Source: Gammaproteobacteria bacterium
Lineage (GTDB): Bacteria; Pseudomonadota; Gammaproteobacteria; UWMA-0217
Assembly: GCA_026981985.1 (NCBI GenBank)
Contig: JALSHZ010000046.1
Location: forward strand, 1 to 64,000
DNA length: 64,000 nt
Direction of reading: 5' to 3'
Below the pieces are notes generated by a model, which was given only the letters and a program-made list of their open reading frames with translations, did no database searches and was not told the origin of the DNA. A program made the translations under genes and the position numbers. Below are positions 730 to 64,000 of the stretch, piece after piece (positions within the stretch are counted from its first letter, which is position 1; every line of letters begins with the position of its first letter).

Positions 730-1710
730 TCAGGCAATACTCTGATAGTAGATATTCTGCGGATGTCTGGCTTCGGCGAAGAAGTACCAGCGTTCGGCGA
801 TGAGGCCGAGGTACTGGATGACGAAGGCGGACAGCGGCAGCAGGTAGCCAGGCTGGTAGAAGCTGGCGATGATCAGCGCGGTGGGGATCAGAAATGTCAA
901 CACGATGAAGATGTATTTGACGCTTTTGACGAAGGCGTCTTTCTTGCCGTGGAAAAATTCGCGGGTGTTGAACGAGCCGCCCATGGCGCCCTGGGCTTTC
1001 TGCGCCATGTTGCTGTGGCGCACACCAATCGCCGAGCGCAGGTCGGATTTCGGCCGCAGGCGTTTGTTGCGCAGCAGTGATGCGCCGCGAAAGATAAACC
1101 CCAGAATAGTGAACAGCAGCGTCCAGCCCGCATAGAAGTTGGTTAGATGGGTGCCGAGCAGGGCTGACAGCGTGGTGGCGATCAGAAAGCCTGAGGCGCT
1201 GCCGAGCAGGATGAAGTTGATAATGGTCAGCGGTGTGTGCCACTCCTGCAGGAACTTGATGCTGGCGTAGATCATGCCGGTGCAGACGAACAGCGCGAAT
1301 GCGGCGATGGTGGCAAGAAAGCCGAGAATCAGCGTCAGGTCGACTTCGGTGCCGCCGGGCGCCTGGAACAGCGGTCGGGTGAGGTCGAAATAGTGCGCCA
1401 GCCCCCACAGCGCGATCAGCCCCATGGCGATGGGTAGCACGATCACTTCCCGCGACAGCCACGAGGTGCGCCACTGCGATGCTGCCCGCCAGGCTCGCTC
1501 CGGGTGGCCGAGGTGGAAGAATGAGGCGACCAGCCCCGCAATGAGCAGTGCCACGGCGATCAGGCTGCCGACGGCGTAGAACAGGCTCATGTGCTGGGTC
1601 GGCAGCAACTTGAAAATGGAGTAGACCTGACTGGTGTAGAGCGCCAGGAATAACCCCTGGCCGGCGCCGATCAGGGTGGTGAGAAAAATGACTGAAAATG
1701 CTGGATGCAT
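730..1710 (-). CDS. soeC: Sulfite dehydrogenase membrane anchor SoeC (DmsC/NrfD-like)
   Basis: A 326-residue, very hydrophobic protein with about eight predicted membrane helices, starting with the stretch at residues 3-29 and ending near residue 320. It fits the DmsC-like anchor family, which binds quinone and holds the cytoplasmic catalytic and iron-sulfur subunits at the inner membrane. The start at 1710 (MHPAFS) is preferred over an upstream in-frame extension, because that extension would overlap soeB and has no membrane character. The gene is last of the three soe genes, 82 bp after soeB. In the SoeABC complex known from Allochromatium vinosum, electrons from sulfite pass to the quinone pool through this subunit. 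A DMSO-reductase-type anchor is the alternative reading, but the SoeA partner favours sulfite oxidation. Confidence 0.85.
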   Translation of the reverse strand: MHPAFSVIFLTTLIGAGQGLFLALYTSQVYSIFKLLPTQHMSLFYAVGSLIAVALLIAGLVASFFHLGHPERAWRAASQWRTSWLSREVIVLPIAMGLIALWGLAHYFDLTRPLFQAPGGTEVDLTLILGFLATIAAFALFVCTGMIYASIKFLQEWHTPLTIINFILLGSASGFLIATTLSALLGTHLTNFYAGWTLLFTILGFIFRGASLLRNKRLRPKSDLRSAIGVRHSNMAQKAQGAMGGSFNTREFFHGKKDAFVKSVKYIFIVLTFLIPTALIIASFYQPGYLLPLSAFVIQYLGLIAERWYFFAEARHPQNIYYQSIA

Positions 1711-1792
1711 GGCGTGTTTCCGATTTTCGATCGGGGCTTGTAGTGCTGCCCCGCCGTTGTGCAAAGGGTTGTCTAGGAGTCTGTCGAACGAC

Positions 1793-2527
1793 CTACCAGG
1801 AAGCCATATCGTCGATGGACGGTCCTTCGCTTGGGCCGATGTGCCGTTTGCGCTCTTCCTTGCTGAGCGGGTTGTCGACCCTTTCCAGCTCGTCCTCATG
1901 AATCTTGACGTAGGTCTTGCGCCGCGGCAGGTAGTGGTTCGACGGGTTGGTGCCCCATTCCGGCATCAACTGGTAACCACCGTTCTCGCGGATGGCGACC
2001 GAAACTTCTGAATCGGGATCATGCACATCGCCGAACAGCCGCGCGCTGGTCGGGCAGGACATGACGCAGGCCGGCTTGCGCTCGCTCTCGGGCAGCGACT
2101 CGTCGTAAATGCGATCGACGCAGAGCGTGCATTTCTTCATCACCTTCTGTTTTTCGTCCAGCTCGCGGGCACCATAGGGGCAGGTCCAGGAGCAGTATTT
2201 GCAGCCGATGCATTTGTCGTAGTCCACCAGCACGATGCCGTCTTCCTCGCGCTTGTAGCTGGCGCCAGTGGGGCAGACCGGCACGCATGGCGGATCTTCG
2301 CAGTGCAGGCAGCTCTTGGGGAAGTGGACGGTCTCGGTGTTGGGAAACTCGCCGACCTCGAAGGTCTGCACGCGGTTGAAGAAGGTGCCGCTGGGATCGG
2401 CGCCATAGGGGTTCTTGTCGTTCATCGGTCCAGCCTCGCCGGAGGTGTTCCACTCCTTGCAGCTGGTGACGCAGGCATGGCAGCCCACGCAGACGTTCAG
2501 ATCGATTACCAGAGCCAGTTGCGTCAT
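1793..2527 (-). CDS. soeB: Sulfite dehydrogenase iron-sulfur subunit SoeB
   Basis: The 244-residue product is a DmsB/NrfC-type ferredoxin subunit. Four cysteine groups are visible: C13-x2-C-x2-C-x3-C near the N-terminus, then the CLHC...CVPVCP group, the CIGCKYCSWTCP group, and a CTLC...CVMSCP group. These would bind four [4Fe-4S] clusters. It relays electrons from the molybdenum site of SoeA to SoeC. There is no signal peptide, so it acts in the cytoplasm. It begins 4 bp after the soeA stop, which implies translational coupling. The last 50 or so residues are charged and lack cysteines. Confidence 0.92.
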   Translation of the reverse strand: MTQLALVIDLNVCVGCHACVTSCKEWNTSGEAGPMNDKNPYGADPSGTFFNRVQTFEVGEFPNTETVHFPKSCLHCEDPPCVPVCPTGASYKREEDGIVLVDYDKCIGCKYCSWTCPYGARELDEKQKVMKKCTLCVDRIYDESLPESERKPACVMSCPTSARLFGDVHDPDSEVSVAIRENGGYQLMPEWGTNPSNHYLPRRKTYVKIHEDELERVDNPLSKEERKRHIGPSEGPSIDDMASW

Positions 2528-2531
2528 TGTC

Positions 2532-5426
2532 TCAAGCTCCCTTCTTCAGTTTTTTGTTGAACATGCCCGCGACGTAGCCCTGCCACTTGCCGCGGCGGCG
2601 TCCCATGCCGGGCAATGCTGCCACGGGTTTGAACTGCGGAAAGGTCTGTTCGGGCTCATCCTCTCCCGCCTTGTAGACGCGTACGCGCACGTCGTACCAG
2701 CCCGCCTGCCCGGTTACCGGGTCGGAGTTGGAGATGTGTTCGCCAGCTTCATGCGGCGGCAGCTCCTCCGAGATCACATGGTTGAGCAGAAAGCCCTTCT
2801 GCGACTCGTTAGCATTGGGTTCCAGCCCCCAGGCACCAGAGGCTTTGCCAATGGCGTTCCAGGTCCACACGGTGCCAGGCTCGACCGCTTCGGAGAAGCG
2901 GCACATACAGCGCACCTTGCCGTGCATCGACTCCACCCATACCCAGTCACCGTCGCCAAAGCCATTGGCCTTGCCCAGCCGTGGATTGACGAACAGATAG
3001 TTGTGGGTGTGGATCTGCCGCAGCCAGGCGTTCTGCGAGTCCCAGGAGTGGTACATCGCCATCGGCCGCTGCGTCAGCGCATTGAGCGGGTACTTGTGGG
3101 TGTCGGTCAGCTGAGCCTCCAGCGGCTCGTGGAAGAACGGCAGCGGATCGAAATAGGTCTTGATGCGTTCGCGCAAGCGGTCCGGTGGCTGGCGGCCATC
3201 GGTCTTGCCTTCGGCGGCGAGACGGAATTTTTGCAACACCTCAGAGTAGACGTGGATATTGATCGGCTCGTCGTAGCGCGTCATGGCGTGTTCCTGCGCC
3301 CAGTGCAGGTAGCCTTTGTTCCAGTTGCGCATGTACTGAAATGAGCGCGGCAGTTCATGGTGGTAGACGCAGTTGTTCTTCTCGTACATCTCCCACTGGC
3401 GTGGATTGGGCTCGCCCTTGAGGAATTTTTCGCCGCTCTTGCCACGCCAGCCAGAGAGAAAGCCGATGCCGGAGCCGGGCGAAGTCTCGAAGTTGATGAT
3501 GAAGTCGCGATAGTCGCGGTACTTGCGCTTGCCTTCTTTATCGACAAAGGCGGGCAGCTTGAGCCGTGTGCCCATCTCCACCAGCACGTCCTGGAATGGC
3601 TTGCAGTCGCCTTTTGGTGGCAGCACCGGAATGCGCACCGAATCGACCGGACCGTCGTATTCGGAAATGGGCCGGTCGAGCATTGACATCACATCGTGGC
3701 GTTCCAGATAGCTGGTGTCGGGCAGGATCAGGTCGGCAAAATCCACCGTTTCCGAGCGGTAGGCGTCGGCAACAATAATGAACGGAATTTTGTGCTCGCC
3801 GTTCTCATCCTTGTCTTGCAGCATCTTGCGGACTTCGACGGTGTTCATCGACGAGTTCCAGGCCATGTTGGCCATGAACAGCAGCAGCGTGTCGATCTTG
3901 TACGGATCGCCGCGCCAGGCATTGGTAATAGCGTTGTGCATCAGGCCGTGGACCGACAGCGGGTACTCCCAGGAAAAGCCCTTGTCGAGGCGCACTGGCT
4001 CGCCCTCGTCATCGACGAAGAGATCATCGGGGTCGGCTGGCCAGCCCAGCGGGTTGCCGTTCAGCGGTGTATCCGGCGCAACATCATCGGGACTGTTGGG
4101 CGGTTTGGGGCAGGGCGGGATCGGCCGCGGAAACGGCGGCTTGTGACGAAAACCGCCGGGGCGGTCGATGGTGCCGAGAATGGTCATCAGAATACTCAGC
4201 GCCCGAATGGTCTGAAAACCATTGGAGTGTGCTGCCAGGCCGCGCATGGCGTGGAACGACACCGGGCTGCCCTCGATGGTGTCGTGGTCCTTGTCCCAGC
4301 AGTCGGTCCACTGGATCGGCAGCTCGATTTTCTGATCGCGAGCGATGATACCCATTTCATGGGCCAGGCGGCGGATCGTATCGGCCGGGATGCCGGTAAT
4401 GCCTTCGGCCCACTCTGGCGTGTATTTTTCTACCCGCTCTTTGAGTAGCTGAAAGGCCGGTTTGCAAGGTGTGCCGTCGGGCAGGGTGAATTCACCCATC
4501 AGGTAGGGATCGACGCCCTCGGTGTGGGTCGAGATGGGCTTGTCCAGCTCCTTGTCCCACCACAGCTTGTTCTGCGGGTCGAAGCAGCCCTCTTCCTGAG
4601 GGACTTCAAAGCGCAGAAACATGCCATATTCATTGTTACTCGCATCCATGTTCACCAGCTCGGCCGAGTTGGTGTAACGCACCAGGAAGTCGCGGTCGTA
4701 GAGCCCCTGCTTGATGATTTCGTGAATAAAGGCGAGAAACAGCGCGCCGTCGGTGCCGGGCTTGATCGGCACCCACTCGTCGGCAATCGCTGCATAGCCG
4801 GTGCGCACCGGATTGATGGCGACGAAGCGGCCGCCGTTACGTTTGAACCGCGACAACTCGATCTTCATCGGGTTGGAGTGGTGATCCTCGGCGGTACCGA
4901 TCATGAAAAACAGCTTCGAGCGCTCCAGATCGGGCCCGCCAAACTCCCAGAACGAGCCGCCGATGGTGTAGATCATCCCCGCGGCCATATTGACCGAGCA
5001 GAAGCCGCCATGTGCCGCGTAGTTGGGCGTGCCGAACTGCTTGGCGAACATCCCGGTCAATGCCTGCATCTGGTCGCGCCCGGTGAACAGCGCGAATTTT
5101 TTCGGGTCTTCGGCGCGAATCTTGCCCAGGCGTTGCTCCATGATGTCGAAAGCTTCGTCCCAGGAGATCTCGTCGTACTTGCCCTCTCCACGTTCCGTGC
5201 CAGGCTTGCGCAGTAGCGGTTTGGTCAGGCGTGCCGGTGAATACTGCTTCATGATCCCCGATGCGCCCTTGGCGCAGAGCACCCCCTTGTTCAACGGGTG
5301 ATCCGGGTTGCCTTGAATATAGCGAACCTCCCCATCCTTGAGCGTCACCCGGATGCCGCAGCGGCAGGCGCACATGTAGCAAGTGGTGTTCTTGACCTCG
5401 ACGGCAGCGTCGTTTTCTTTGCTCAT
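2532..5426 (-). CDS. soeA: Sulfite dehydrogenase molybdopterin subunit SoeA
   Basis: A 964-residue molybdopterin-guanine-dinucleotide oxidoreductase of the DMSO reductase/PSR family. Near the N-terminus a CYMCACRC motif (C-x2-C-x3-C) and a fourth Cys 27 residues later (GVLCAKG) bind the FS0 [4Fe-4S] cluster. The body then follows the family plan and ends with a molydopterin dinucleotide-binding domain. No twin-arginine signal is present; the protein starts MSKEND and runs straight into the cluster motif, so it is cytoplasmic. This matches SoeA and not periplasmic DmsA or PsrA. The reaction would be oxidation of sulfite to sulfate with quinone as acceptor. An in-frame TTG at 5471 would add 15 residues, but the ATG at 5426 is preferred. 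It is first in soeABC and divergent from the TrpD2-like gene. Confidence 0.88.
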   Translation of the reverse strand: MSKENDAAVEVKNTTCYMCACRCGIRVTLKDGEVRYIQGNPDHPLNKGVLCAKGASGIMKQYSPARLTKPLLRKPGTERGEGKYDEISWDEAFDIMEQRLGKIRAEDPKKFALFTGRDQMQALTGMFAKQFGTPNYAAHGGFCSVNMAAGMIYTIGGSFWEFGGPDLERSKLFFMIGTAEDHHSNPMKIELSRFKRNGGRFVAINPVRTGYAAIADEWVPIKPGTDGALFLAFIHEIIKQGLYDRDFLVRYTNSAELVNMDASNNEYGMFLRFEVPQEEGCFDPQNKLWWDKELDKPISTHTEGVDPYLMGEFTLPDGTPCKPAFQLLKERVEKYTPEWAEGITGIPADTIRRLAHEMGIIARDQKIELPIQWTDCWDKDHDTIEGSPVSFHAMRGLAAHSNGFQTIRALSILMTILGTIDRPGGFRHKPPFPRPIPPCPKPPNSPDDVAPDTPLNGNPLGWPADPDDLFVDDEGEPVRLDKGFSWEYPLSVHGLMHNAITNAWRGDPYKIDTLLLFMANMAWNSSMNTVEVRKMLQDKDENGEHKIPFIIVADAYRSETVDFADLILPDTSYLERHDVMSMLDRPISEYDGPVDSVRIPVLPPKGDCKPFQDVLVEMGTRLKLPAFVDKEGKRKYRDYRDFIINFETSPGSGIGFLSGWRGKSGEKFLKGEPNPRQWEMYEKNNCVYHHELPRSFQYMRNWNKGYLHWAQEHAMTRYDEPINIHVYSEVLQKFRLAAEGKTDGRQPPDRLRERIKTYFDPLPFFHEPLEAQLTDTHKYPLNALTQRPMAMYHSWDSQNAWLRQIHTHNYLFVNPRLGKANGFGDGDWVWVESMHGKVRCMCRFSEAVEPGTVWTWNAIGKASGAWGLEPNANESQKGFLLNHVISEELPPHEAGEHISNSDPVTGQAGWYDVRVRVYKAGEDEPEQTFPQFKPVAALPGMGRRRGKWQGYVAGMFNKKLKKGA

Positions 5427-5600
5427 TAGTAATTCAGCAGGTTCTAATGGGTGGCCGCCTAGTGTGGCCAAGTAGAACTTATGCGTCTAATCAAAGAATT
5501 TGATGGTTGGATAGAGCCCTCGTCCGTATGGGCAATGGGGTTTTGTTGTGAAATCAGCCCAATGGGGTACATCTGTAGCGATGAAACAAGGAGATAGCCG

Positions 5601-15728: not shown

Positions 15729-16723
15729 TCAGGCTTGCGTAATTGCGTCTATCTGTTTCTTAAGGTCTTCTTGCATCTCCGGGGAAGAGCTGGCCAGTTT
15801 TTCGATTCTGCCTACCTGCCGGCTCAGGGTGGATACGTCCCGTCCAAACCAGGCAGCAACTTCAGTCAGGGAAGCAGCATCCAGTTGGCGTGCCAGATAA
15901 CCGGTCATTGCGCGCGCCTGTGCCGCCCCCCGATTCCGCCCCGGTGTACTGAGTGTCTCTGGTTCGACACCCATCGCAGCTGTTACATGATGAATGATGG
16001 CTTCCAGGGTGGTGTGGCTATTCGAGCGGCTGTGCTTGCCCAGCACTTGGTTCACGTAGCTGTCGTCACCCAGTATTCGGCTGTCGTCGCCTCCCCCTTG
16101 GTGGAACTCCTGACGATGGCCTTCGGCAATCGCATCTTGAACAAAGGCGGCATAGCGTTTTCTGCAAGTCTCAAGCCGCTTGGCAAACTGGCTGAGTACC
16201 CAGTCTGCCTGTAGCCATGGCAGTGTTTCCAGTCCCAGATACGCACGATGACTGCTCCAGGGGTATTCCGATGGATCTGAAACCAGGCCGGCGCGGACTG
16301 GATTGAGGTGGATATAACGCACCAGTTCCAGCATGTAGCTGTCGGCGTCGACCAACACGGCCTTATATCGCCCCTGGAACAGGTGACCGGTTCGTGACTG
16401 ATTGTTGTTGATCCAGCGGGTGTAGCGAAATGCCAGATTTTGCATGATCCGCGAGAGTGGTGTGTCGGCCACCTGTATCGCCAGATGAAGATGGTTACTC
16501 ATGCAGCAGAAGGCGTGAATCCTGTGGCCGAATTTCTCAGTACCCTCTTGCATCAGCAGGTAGAGATGGTGCCGGTCGTCGTCATCAAAGAAAATGTCCT
16601 GCCCGCCGTTGCCGCGCAGCATGACGTGATAGAAGCCTCCCGGCACATGGATTCTGGGTTTTCTGGCCATTCGGCGATGATATGTCAGCGGGGGTTGTTA
16701 TACAATAGCGCAAGCCTGACCCC
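15725..16723. mobile_element. RAYT unit bounded by 15-bp inverted repeats
   Basis: GGGGTCAGGCTTGCG (15725-15739) is matched exactly by its reverse complement at 16709-16723. Both ends continue with related A/T-rich bases (AATTG on the left, ATTGTA on the right arm). The RAYT gene fills the inside, and its stop codon (15729-15731) lies within the left repeat. The same arm sequence forms a perfect palindrome at 36492-36553. RAYTs normally act on REP palindromes and do not move as classical insertion sequences, so whether this whole unit is mobile is inference. Confidence 0.65.
15729..16670 (-). CDS. REP-associated tyrosine transposase (RAYT, Y1/HUH family)
   Basis: A 313-residue protein of the TnpA_REP/IS200-like family. 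It starts MARKPRIHVPGGFYHVMLRGNG, as RAYTs do. The HUH metal motif is NHLHLAI near residue 79. The catalytic tyrosine is expected in the helix ending in YIHLNPVRAGLV. A C-terminal domain of about 90 residues (ARAMTGYLAR...LTEVAAWFGRDVSTLSRQV) resembles a DnaA/HTH-type DNA-binding domain. These proteins cleave single-stranded REP hairpins. The gene is intact. It sits between gltB and a flippase gene, in the opposite orientation to the latter. Confidence 0.9.
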   Translation of the reverse strand: MARKPRIHVPGGFYHVMLRGNGGQDIFFDDDDRHHLYLLMQEGTEKFGHRIHAFCCMSNHLHLAIQVADTPLSRIMQNLAFRYTRWINNNQSRTGHLFQGRYKAVLVDADSYMLELVRYIHLNPVRAGLVSDPSEYPWSSHRAYLGLETLPWLQADWVLSQFAKRLETCRKRYAAFVQDAIAEGHRQEFHQGGGDDSRILGDDSYVNQVLGKHSRSNSHTTLEAIIHHVTAAMGVEPETLSTPGRNRGAAQARAMTGYLARQLDAASLTEVAAWFGRDVSTLSRQVGRIEKLASSSPEMQEDLKKQIDAITQA

Positions 16724-21353: not shown

Positions 21354-22025
21354 ATGTCGATCATCGACTGGCCCGCAGACGAGCGGCCGAGGGAAAAGCT
21401 GATTCAGCGTGGCGCTGCTGCGTTGTCGGATGCGGAGTTGCTGGCGATATTTCTGCGTACTGGCATACAGGGCAAGTCGGCGGTCGATCTGGCACGCGAG
21501 CTGCTCGATCGTTACGGTAGCCTGCGGGCGCTGCTGGAAGACGATGCCAACGGATTCTGCAGTAACAAGGGCTTGGGTCTGGCCAAGTTTGCCCAGCTTC
21601 AGGCGGTGCTGGAGATGGCGAATCGTCACCTGCGGGAACGCTTGCAGCGAGGTGATGCCTTCACCGATCCGCAAGGGGCGCGACAGTATTTGCAGCAGCG
21701 ACTGCGTCACCGGCCGATGGAGGTGTTCGCCTGCCTGTTTCTCGACACCCGGCACCGCCTGATCGAATTTTCTGAGCTGTTTACCGGCACCATCGATGGT
21801 GCCAGCGTTCACCCCCGCGAGGTGGTGAAAAAAGCCCTGGCATTGAATGCAGCGGCCGTCATTCTGGCGCATAATCATCCTTCAGGCATTGCCGAGCCAA
21901 GTCAGGCGGATCAGCAGATCACCCGGCGTTTGCAAGACGCGCTGGGGTTGGTTGATGTCCGCGTGCTCGACCATATTGTGGTGGGGGATGACTGCGTTTC
22001 AATGGCCGAGCGTGGCATGCTGTAA
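21354..22025 (+). CDS. radC: RadC/UPF0758 JAB-domain protein
   Basis: A 223-residue protein of normal RadC length. An N-terminal helix-hairpin-helix region (residues 1-80) precedes an MPN/JAB domain. The metal motif HNHPSG near residue 172 and the following D-Q pattern fit the family. Despite the name, a repair role has been questioned and the enzymatic activity is unknown. It is transcribed away from coaBC. Confidence 0.93.
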
Positions 22026-22069
22026 AGCGGGTTTGGCTGTTACCGCAAGCGTTGCACTGGAGAAAATCG

Positions 22070-22642
22070 ATGAAATACGCCGTGATTCTGCTACTGCTCT
22101 TTGCCGGGCCGCTGCATGCGGCCGACTGGTTTCCATTCGCGAATGACGACAGTCAATATGAGTATTGGGATGATGGTTTCGCCTATGGCCAAGGATATGG
22201 CCAGGGCTACGGGTATGGCTATGGCGAGAACTGGTATCGGGGGGAGGGAAAAGGTCGTGGTGAATCCATTTTCGACAGCATGTCGGATGCGATGGGTGAC
22301 TTCATGACCGACGGCGTTGGCGATGTCATGGGCGATATCGAACTCGATCTCGATTTCACCGTTCGCGCCCGTGGCAAGGGTTCTGGCAAGGCGCGTGGCG
22401 AGGCTGACAGCCGCGCCGAGTACTATGGCGGTGGGTATGGCAGCGGCTACGGTGATTACCTGGCTGACTACTACGGCTATGGCGGCGGATATGGCGATGC
22501 CGTGGGGTCGGAATATTACGATGGCGGTTGGGATGGCTACCATGGCTATGAAGGCGGCTACTACCCGGGCTACGAGTCTTGGGGGTATGGCTACATTCCG
22601 CCTTATTATCAATCAGATGTGTTAACTTATCCGCAATACTAG
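22070..22642 (+). CDS. Secreted Gly/Tyr-rich protein, sulfur-globule-protein-like
   Basis: A 190-residue protein with a clean signal peptide (MKYAVILLLLFAGPLHA, cut before ADW). The mature part has three zones. The first is acidic-aromatic and then GYGQGYGYGYG. The middle has a FDSMSDAMGDFMTDGVGDVMGDIELDLDF-type zone of M/D/G/F repeats, with DLDFTVRARGKGSGKARGEA after it. The last is a YGGGYGSGYGDY-rich tail. This composition and order resemble the sulfur globule family proteins that coat periplasmic sulfur in Chromatiaceae. Start at 22070 is supported by CTGGAG just upstream. Together with soeABC it hints that the cell stores sulfur. Other Gly/Tyr-rich surface proteins remain possible. No gene beside it is known to belong to sulfur oxidation. 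Confidence 0.68.
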   Translation: MKYAVILLLLFAGPLHAADWFPFANDDSQYEYWDDGFAYGQGYGQGYGYGYGENWYRGEGKGRGESIFDSMSDAMGDFMTDGVGDVMGDIELDLDFTVRARGKGSGKARGEADSRAEYYGGGYGSGYGDYLADYYGYGGGYGDAVGSEYYDGGWDGYHGYEGGYYPGYESWGYGYIPPYYQSDVLTYPQY

Positions 22643-22726: not shown

Positions 22727-23260
22727 TCACGGGTTGCGCTCGGTGTGCTGGCGCATCAGCTTGACATAGTGGCTGGCCGAATAGCGCAGGTATTCCCGTT
22801 CCTTGTCACTCAGGAGCCGGCTGCGTCTGGCGGGTGCGCCAACCCACAGATAACCCCCTTCCAGTGTTTTCCCAGGCGGTACCAATGCGCCCGCGCCGAG
22901 CATGACGCCTGCCTCCAGCACGGCCTTATCGAGCACGATGCTGCCCATGCCGATCAGGCAACGGTCACCAATGGTGCAGGCATGCAGGGTGGCATTGTGT
23001 CCAACCGTCACCTCGTCGCCGATCAGTAGGGGAGAGCCGCCGGGGACGTACTGGCTGTCGTGGGTGACGTGCAATACCGAGCCATCCTGAATATTGCTGC
23101 GGGCACCGATTTCGATACGCTGGATATCGCCGCGAACCACCACCTGGGGCCATATCGAACTCTCTTCGCCAATGCGCACCTGGCCGATGACCGTAGCCTG
23201 ATCATCAACCCAGGCAGATGCTGCAATCTGTGGTGTCCAGTCGAGAAAGCGTCTGATCAT
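22727..23260 (-). CDS. Gamma carbonic anhydrase family protein (YrdA-like)
   Basis: A 177-residue left-handed beta-helix protein with hexapeptide repeats. Metal ligands appear as His in LHVTHD and the GHNATLHAC stretch, the pattern of the gamma carbonic anhydrase family. The bacterial YrdA/PaaY branch contains both weak anhydrases and proteins of unknown activity. It is convergent with the preceding gene and divergent from ubiA. Confidence 0.9.
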   Translation of the reverse strand: MIRRFLDWTPQIAASAWVDDQATVIGQVRIGEESSIWPQVVVRGDIQRIEIGARSNIQDGSVLHVTHDSQYVPGGSPLLIGDEVTVGHNATLHACTIGDRCLIGMGSIVLDKAVLEAGVMLGAGALVPPGKTLEGGYLWVGAPARRSRLLSDKEREYLRYSASHYVKLMRQHTERNP

Positions 23261-61996: not shown

Positions 61997-62020
61997 ATGT
62001 GCACCAGCGGTGTGGGTTGC

Positions 62021-62507
62021 CCTCTCTGGCACTGGATTCCGGCGTCCTGCCGGAAAGACGGCGCTTTCGTCATCCTCGCCGGGAAGCGGGGATCCAGGTT
62101 ACAGGGATGTATGCCACCGTGGGTGGAAGCCCTCCCTGGCGCTGGATTCCGGCGTCCTGCCGGAATGACAGCACTTTCGTCATCCTCGCAGGGAAGTGGC
62201 GATCCAGGTTACAGGGATGTATGCCACCGTCGGTGGAAGCCCTCCCTGGCGCTGGATTCCGGCGTCCCTGCCGGAAAGACGGCGCGTCGTCATCCTCGCA
62301 GGGAAGCGGGGATCCAGGTTACAGGGATGTATGTCACCGTGGGTGGAAGCCCTCCCTGGCGCTGGATTCCGGCATCCTGCCGGAATGACAGCACTTTCGT
62401 CATCCTCGCAGGGAAGTGGCGATCCAGGTTACAGGGATGTATGCCACCGTGGGTGGAGGTCCTCCCTGGCGCTGGATTCCGGCACCCCTGCCAGAACGAC
62501 GGGAGCC
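62021..62507. repeat. 110-bp tandem array, 4.4 copies
   Basis: Units start CCTC(C/T)CTGGC at 62021, 62131, 62241, 62351 and 62461, exactly 110 bp apart. A diverged partial unit probably precedes the first. Each unit has CTGGATTCCGGC followed by GCCGGAA(T/A)GAC, then GTCATCCTCGC and GGGATCCAGG or similar. CTGGAT pairs with ATCCAG and GTCAT with ATGAC, so each unit can fold into a long hairpin. Units alternate slightly (2 and 4 are more alike, as are 1 and 3). Confidence 0.92.
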
Positions 62508-62560
62508 ATGGTGTTGAGTTGGTTGACCCATTGATTCAGTGGCGTGTGAGGCTTTGCCGA

Positions 62561-64000
62561 TTATTTTTCCGCGCCGACTACCGCTTTGCCAATGCCACGT
62601 GGGTCGCTGGCGGCATCGGTTTTTTGCGATGATCTGTCGAAAATAACGACCTGCATATTACCGTAGCTGTTTTCCATTTGTTGCAGCTTGTGCCCCATGG
62701 CTTCGAGTTCTTTTTTGGTGGTTGCGTCGATGCTGCCGGGCTCCAGCTGAATGGCATCGGGCAGGTATTGGTGATGAAATCTCGGCATGGCGACGATTTC
62801 AGCAGCGGATGCATCCTGATCGAACGCCAGTGTTGCCAGCAGCACCATGGTGATGATGCGGCTGCCGCCCGGCGTGCCGATGATGCCGATGCGTTGCTTG
62901 TTCTCCAGAAAGGTCGGTGTCATTGACGAGAGCATGCGCTTGCCGGGTTCGATGGCGTTGGCGCGGGCACTGACCAGGCCATAGACATTGGGGGTGCCGG
63001 GCCGTGCGGCAAAGTCATCCATTTCGTCATTGAGCAGAACGCCTGTGCCCGCGGCGACAAAACCGGAGCCGAACGGGTAGTTGATCGACAAGGTTGCCGC
63101 AACGCGGTTGCCTTCGCTGTCGATGATCGAAAAATGAGTGGTGTGACGGCCCTGCGATGTCTCTCGCACGGTTGGCGCCAGCATCGCACTCGGTGTCGCC
63201 TTGTCGGGATGAATCGACTGGCGCAGTCCCGCGGCATAACGTTTGTCGAGCAACATTGTCTGCGGAACCTCGACAAAGTCACTATCCCCCAGATACTCGG
63301 CGCGATCGCGATACGCCCGGCGCATGGCTTCGACGATATGGTGCAGCTGGCCCGCCTCGTTCATTGCGCTGAGATCGTAGGCTTCCAGTTGGTTGAGTAT
63401 TTCCACCAGCACGATGCCGCCAGAAGAGGGTAGCGCGGCTGTGGTGATTCTTGTTCCACGGTATGTGCCTCGCACGGGCTGGCGTTCGACAATGGCGTAT
63501 TCGCGTAGATCCTTGTCCTGCCAGATGCCACCGGCCTGGGTCACGGCAGCGATCAGTTTCCTGGCAGTCTCGCCTTCGTAGAATCCTGCTCGCCCCTTTT
63601 CAGCAATCAGGCGTAAGGTTTGGGCTAGATCCGGCTGGGTGATCAGAGCTCCCAGGCGCGGCATTTTGCCGCCGGGCAGGAAAATCTCGCTGGCCGCAGC
63701 GGATGCTTTGATGGCCTGCTCGCGGAAGCCGGCCATTTTCAGATAGATGTCATCAGCCGGGAATCCCGTTTCTGCCAGGTGAATGGCTGGTGCCAGCGTC
63801 GCTTTGAGCGGCAATTTTCCGTAGTGTTTTGCAATATGTACCAGCGCGGCGGGTTCGCCGGGAATGCCGGCTGCCAACGCGCCATCGATCGACAAGCCCG
63901 GGATGACCTCGCCATTTTCATCCAGGTACATGTCGGCGGTGGCGGCGAGCGGCGCTTTCTCGCGCCCATCGACCATGGTTTGAAAGCCGTCACTGGCGCG
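62561..64000 (-). CDS. ggt: Gamma-glutamyltransferase, cut by the window edge
   Basis: About 480 residues of the C-terminal part are seen; the N-terminus lies beyond base 64000. The autoprocessing and catalytic Thr is in RHTTHFSIID. The glycine-rich substrate loop GTPGGSRII is present. The enzyme, normally periplasmic, cleaves gamma-glutamyl bonds of glutathione and moves the glutamyl group to amino acids or water. It would release cysteinylglycine for sulfur or amino acid use. The open frame continues without a stop to the edge. No start can be given. Confidence 0.95.
   Translation of the reverse strand, partial: RASDGFQTMVDGREKAPLAATADMYLDENGEVIPGLSIDGALAAGIPGEPAALVHIAKHYGKLPLKATLAPAIHLAETGFPADDIYLKMAGFREQAIKASAAASEIFLPGGKMPRLGALITQPDLAQTLRLIAEKGRAGFYEGETARKLIAAVTQAGGIWQDKDLREYAIVERQPVRGTYRGTRITTAALPSSGGIVLVEILNQLEAYDLSAMNEAGQLHHIVEAMRRAYRDRAEYLGDSDFVEVPQTMLLDKRYAAGLRQSIHPDKATPSAMLAPTVRETSQGRHTTHFSIIDSEGNRVAATLSINYPFGSGFVAAGTGVLLNDEMDDFAARPGTPNVYGLVSARANAIEPGKRMLSSMTPTFLENKQRIGIIGTPGGSRIITMVLLATLAFDQDASAAEIVAMPRFHHQYLPDAIQLEPGSIDATTKKELEAMGHKLQQMENSYGNMQVVIFDRSSQKTDAASDPRGIGKAVVGAEK

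Follow-up and report, generated by a model that had tools for sequence, protein, structure and literature searches.

The gene at positions 22070–22642 of a 64,000-nucleotide stretch of gammaproteobacterial DNA (the window) probably encodes a divergent Sgp-like protein that is an accessory component of the sulfur globule envelope. The product appears to be an acidic and lineage-specific variant, one of at least three Sgp-like proteins encoded in the genome, and a divergent relative that is tied to the Pfam sulfur globule protein family PF17228 through intermediates. Its acidity, its unusual C-terminus and its restriction to one lineage at this locus make an accessory role in the coat more probable than that of the main coat protein.

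The reading frame (Table 1) opens with ATG and is a genuine gene rather than a low-complexity frame open by chance, because its codon usage resembles that of the neighboring genes and homologs with open frames occur both in this genome and in those of relatives. The GC content at codon positions 1, 2 and 3 is 0.62, 0.45 and 0.61, close to that of the adjoining genes, and glycine is encoded mainly by GGC, as it is in them. A scan for promoters and terminators gave nothing convincing. A plausible signal peptide, the GYG repeats, the M/D/G/F-rich middle zone (residues 67–96) and tyrosine-rich tail listed in the initial annotation are all present, the signal peptide having been recognized by eye, as was the putative cleavage between MKYAVILLLLFAGPLHA and ADW, after which the mature part begins ADWFPF. 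The tryptophan and proline of the WFPF motif are invariant in the five closest members (alignment A1), the counterparts in relatives being WTPF, WTPW and WGPW, and the segment IFDSMSDAMGDFMTDGVGDVM is common, by alignment, to the homologs L219, L028 and L037. The mature protein is rich in glycine (23.7%) and aromatic residues (tyrosine 17.3%) and devoid of cysteine, but is longer than the median Sgp; its pI of 4.05 is the lowest in the family, no other among 93 family sequences falling below 4.2.

Table 1. Features of the Sgp-like gene, its neighbors and the molybdopterin oxidoreductase operon in the window
Feature	Position	Strand	Basis or remark
Three-gene molybdopterin oxidoreductase operon, SoeABC-consistent	730–5471	-	Domain content only
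radC, upstream neighbor, 44-bp gap	21354–22025	+	Not functionally linked
GGAG, ribosome-binding-site-like	22059–22062	+	7 nt 5' of ATG; sequence
Sgp-like gene, 190 aa	22070–22642, stop included	+	ORF; homologs
Predicted Sec signal peptide MKYAVILLLLFAGPLHA, residues 1–17	22070–22120	+	By eye; AlphaFold helix 4–16
Aromatic WFPF motif, directly past cleavage site	22127–22138	+	Alignment A1
First GYG repeat block, residues 36–52	22175–22225	+	Sequence; alignment A1
Acidic amphipathic segment IFDSMSDAMGDFMTDGVGDVM, residues 67–87	22268–22330	+	AlphaFold helix, low confidence; hydrophobic moment
Strand-like alternating segment DIELDLDFTVRA, residues 89–100	22334–22369	+	Beta moment
Basic RGKGSGKARG patch, residues 101–110	22370–22399	+	Alignments A1 and A2
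Tyr/Gly-rich C-terminal tail, residues 118–190	22421–22639	+	Sequence; predicted disordered, pLDDT 40–49
Gamma carbonic anhydrase-like gene, downstream convergent neighbor	22727–23260	-	Below curated cut-off; not functionally linked

The protein produced no match to PF17228 at E-values up to 10 and only chance matches in scans of Pfam and NCBIfam, which bears out the expectation that annotation would miss it; because it falls short of the PF17228 gathering score, it is not filed under that family. Its four nearest relatives, from its own genome and from the related genomes G001 and G002, share GYG repeats, a W-P pair past the cleavage site, a stretch of acidic residues and an F-x-F-x-x-GKG core, and the closest proteins are paralogs or homologs of the same layout within the same GTDB family. 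A search profile of these four and the protein itself (five sequences) retrieved further copies from the host genome (contigs C45 and C23, and a fragment on C22) as well as Sgp-looking proteins across the class Gammaproteobacteria, several of which exceed the PF17228 cut-off of 26.7 bits. The C45 paralog reaches 28.3 bits in the genome scan and 25.5 bits, just under the cut-off, when scanned alone. Proteins of G002 and G004, from the same family, are clearly above it (63–66 bits in G004), and L028, L037 and L040, which have the same core, match PF17228 with E-values of 7e-9 to 9e-13. Weak matches of relatives to TrAA12, keratin and serine-rich models were judged compositional, and a plasmid search with an Sgp query found no match. 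Of the proposed fit to the sulfur globule family, the similarity beyond composition and the PF17228 match of the C45 paralog stand; a PF17228 match of the protein itself is absent.

The Sgp-like pieces on C45 (21856–22318) and C22 (124–315) of the host genome (G000) both lie at contig ends, and G001 has a single gene with the same neighbor as on the C22 side (an MTxNWKDNIYLQR protein); therefore, the two pieces are probably one repetitive sgp locus that was split by the assembler. The neighbor itself (C22 446–1408, L053; C168 in G001), a conserved protein of the type TANWKDNIYLQRxQLAEQLR..., adjoins an sgp-like gene in both genomes. The C22 copy has no Pfam match, and a sensor linked to globules is a possible role for this neighbor.

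Homology is hard to prove for a repetitive Gly/Tyr-rich sequence. The mature part was scored against profiles built without the protein, with 1000 shuffles as the reference. The raw scores were 118 with the near-relative profile (dipeptide shuffles 47 ± 7, maximum 84), 86 with a profile of PF17228-positive proteins (43 ± 6, maximum 62.5), 76 with a profile of named Sgp proteins (40 ± 6, maximum 62) and 83 with L219 alone (30 ± 5, maximum 50). They top all residue and dipeptide shuffles, the whole-family profile included, and 97–100% of the block shuffles, in which local repeats are kept; since just 0–31 of 1000 of the latter equal the raw score, the order of the blocks matters too. The named-Sgp profile comprises mostly purple sulfur bacteria (Allochromatium palmeri, Thiocapsa, Thiocystis, Thiococcus and Chromatium, with Sedimenticola and Thiodiazotropha in addition). 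A scan of named genomes with an A. vinosum sat primer found nothing; the DsrE of A. vinosum (PDB:2hy5), used next as bait, yielded named purple sulfur bacteria with A. vinosum itself absent. With HMMER bias correction the near-relative profile still assigns 70 bits to the protein. In the profile search with Sgp-family proteins that had been suggested at the outset, the raw score of 76 is above every dipeptide shuffle, and the bias-corrected score is -8.3, which 3 of 1000 dipeptide shuffles and 6–12% of block shuffles equal. Because this score is negative and equalled by shuffles, the link to classical Sgps is carried by intermediates, the best of which is L219 in G134 (BLAST E = 3e-4, from a single comparison). 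Taken in this way, the similarity to PF17228-positive proteins goes beyond composition and points to homology, in part via intermediate relatives.

A single-sequence AlphaFold model (pLDDT 49) contains just two helices, that of the signal peptide and one spanning residues 67–87, and its low confidence is as expected for a disordered protein. The helical hydrophobic moment of residues 67–87 exceeds 99% of the shuffles of this segment, and the beta moment of DIELDLDFTVRA is equalled by 0.04% of shuffles. The same type of hydrophobic/polar alternation is seen in L219, L028, L037 and the A. palmeri protein (99.8–99.98% of shuffles). In a subgroup from G105, G221 and G320 (L020, L022 and L031) the middle looks similar and has no amphipathic moment; support for this subgroup is weaker once bias-corrected.

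Although the gene does lie away from other sulfur genes, as had been remarked, this carries little weight: such distance is normal for sgp genes, since the locus tags of those in A. vinosum are scattered (PMC3368242, PMC10386293) and the recognizable neighbor of the A. palmeri homolog is leuA. The gene is lineage-specific at the radC locus, because in G002, G003, G004 and G134 other genes follow radC and no Sgp-like copy was seen beside it; radC was not found in G001. A function linked to radC or to a conserved operon was rejected, since radC is followed by other genes in relatives with a readable locus. Elsewhere in the window, positions 61997–62632 contain about four tandem copies of a 110-bp unit (repeat 62019–62502; alternatively 2.2 copies of 220 bp), with one open frame of GAGFRRPAGMT-like peptides, which is probably a REP-like intergenic repeat and not a gene. 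A Y1/IS200-like transposase of the REP-associated type, fused to a DnaA-like helix-turn-helix (15729–16670, minus strand), may be related to this repeat.

The gene content of the host comprises a reverse Dsr pathway, Sox without SoxCD, and sulfide oxidation: contig C75 carries the reverse dsr cluster in full (dsrAB, EFH and additional dsr genes), soxB and a flavocytochrome c sulfide dehydrogenase (FCSD) are present, and soxC was not found in this genome, which is 98% complete. The combination of dsrAB, soxB and FCSD without soxC is the gene set of globule-forming sulfur oxidizers, and A. vinosum, which has such a set, makes periplasmic globules (PMC3368242). Stored sulfur had initially been suggested from the candidate together with soeABC in the window; the operon is consistent with SoeABC by its domains, but soeABC is not specific for storage, and it is the dsr/sox pattern that is. 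A soxC gene is present in the relative G003 (contig C228, 3400–4692) but was found neither in the host nor in three other members of the family, which may therefore not all store sulfur in the same way. Among 369 Gammaproteobacteria, the Sgp-like proteins are strongly associated with dsrA: the five-sequence profile has matches at E ≤ 1e-7 in 23 of 119 dsrA-positive genomes versus 4 of 250 others (odds ratio 14.7, or 12.3 without the window's own family; P = 5e-9, the P values being indicative only because the genomes are related). By hand count, 50 of the 56 genomes with PF17228 matches are dsrA-positive, and PF17228 was found in 11 of 12 named sulfur oxidizers, the exception being the betaproteobacterium Sulfurisoma.

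Could the resemblance reflect composition rather than descent? A secreted Gly/Tyr-rich protein of unrelated origin, such as a cell-wall or adhesive protein, which became Sgp-like by convergence would fit the weak bias-corrected scores against distant Sgp profiles and the modest, single-comparison BLAST match to L219. This is improbable, given that composition and dipeptide shuffles never equal the raw scores and block shuffles rarely do, that the near-relative profile remains strong after bias correction, and that the family tracks dsrA. A descendant of an sgp gene that has moved to another role, in the envelope, in the matrix or at the surface, as an acidic low-complexity protein that is not bound to sulfur, is unlikely too, if somewhat less so. 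It would account for a protein whose acidity exceeds that of all others in the set, whose C-terminus is not of the usual Ala/Pro type, and which occupies a lineage-specific locus and stays below the PF17228 threshold, but the family layout and the amphipathic core are kept, and the host has a complete globule-type sulfur pathway.

By far the least probable reading is that of a decaying or non-expressed sgp duplicate. The several paralogs in the genome, the divergent sequence and the lack of conservation at the radC locus in relatives are compatible with it, whereas the intact frame, the putative ribosome-binding site, the intact predicted signal peptide and the neighbor-like codon usage speak against it.

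For an accessory envelope protein, which we prefer, the following sequence of events can be proposed. The protein would be exported to the periplasm by Sec, as its signal peptide suggests. There, FCSD and Sox without SoxCD, whose genes are present and whose functions are established in A. vinosum, would oxidize sulfide and thiosulfate to sulfane sulfur. The mature, mostly disordered protein would join its Sgp paralogs in a thin coat around the globule, with the amphipathic helix/strand module at the sulfur–water interface, the basic GKG patch in contact with anionic polysulfide ends or neighboring acidic segments, and the GY-rich tails holding the coat together. Stored sulfur would later be oxidized by the reverse Dsr pathway, the genes for which are present. 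A module that seeks the interface, combined with a basic patch and with GY tails that adhere to one another, would make a reasonable design for a sulfur coat. A more speculative and unlikely extension is that a distinct acidic Sgp subfamily missed by Pfam, defined by the conserved amphipathic helix, the alternating strand and the basic GKG patch, acts beside the ordinary coat as an interface-active layer or a regulator of globule size.

Little is understood of the way in which a thin layer of protein governs stored sulfur, and to our knowledge few globule proteins have been tested so far. Divergent copies escape the curated SGP model even where a genome encodes the whole pathway, and the variety of globule coats is thus probably larger than annotation suggests. 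In the helix–strand–GKG core, which is conserved, there is a short segment open to mutation for work on sulfur binding.

Compared with SgpA, SgpB and SgpC of A. vinosum and PF17228, for which proteins of A. palmeri and Thiocapsa stood in as A. vinosum was absent from the searched set, the protein has a like predicted Sec signal and the same aromatic mature start, Gly/Tyr richness and lack of cysteine, as well as an MxD/GD-spaced acidic stretch followed by an F(N/D)-M-S/R-G-rich segment; a host with reverse Dsr and dispersed sgp genes are likewise common to both. It differs in being longer (mature part 173 versus about 100 aa) and more acidic, in its basic GKGSGKARG patch, in a score below the PF17228 threshold, and in a Tyr-rich end without the usual APVAPAAP-type tail. 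The core of L219 (146 aa) is nearly identical (SDALGDVFGDFFGDAEVDITFRIRASGKGKGRGKGRG versus SDAMGDFMTDGVGDVMGDIELDLDFTVRARGKGSGKARG), but L219 lacks the long GYG block ahead of it, has KYRRW at its C-terminal end and matches PF17228 weakly (16.7 bits, under the cut-off). The C45/C22 and C23 paralogs share the predicted signal peptide, the W-rich start, the GYG repeats, the acidic step and the F-S-F-KGKG core and differ by Asn-rich repeats and, for C23, by a C-terminal region that is extended and rich in Ala, Pro and Met. SgpD of A. vinosum (Alvin_2515), an abundant and possibly coiled-coil periplasmic globule protein (PMC10386293), can be set beside the protein by description, as a known next to a candidate periplasmic globule protein. 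The protein is, in sum, most likely a distant relative of a known family of coat proteins, useful as such, and not a new kind of system.
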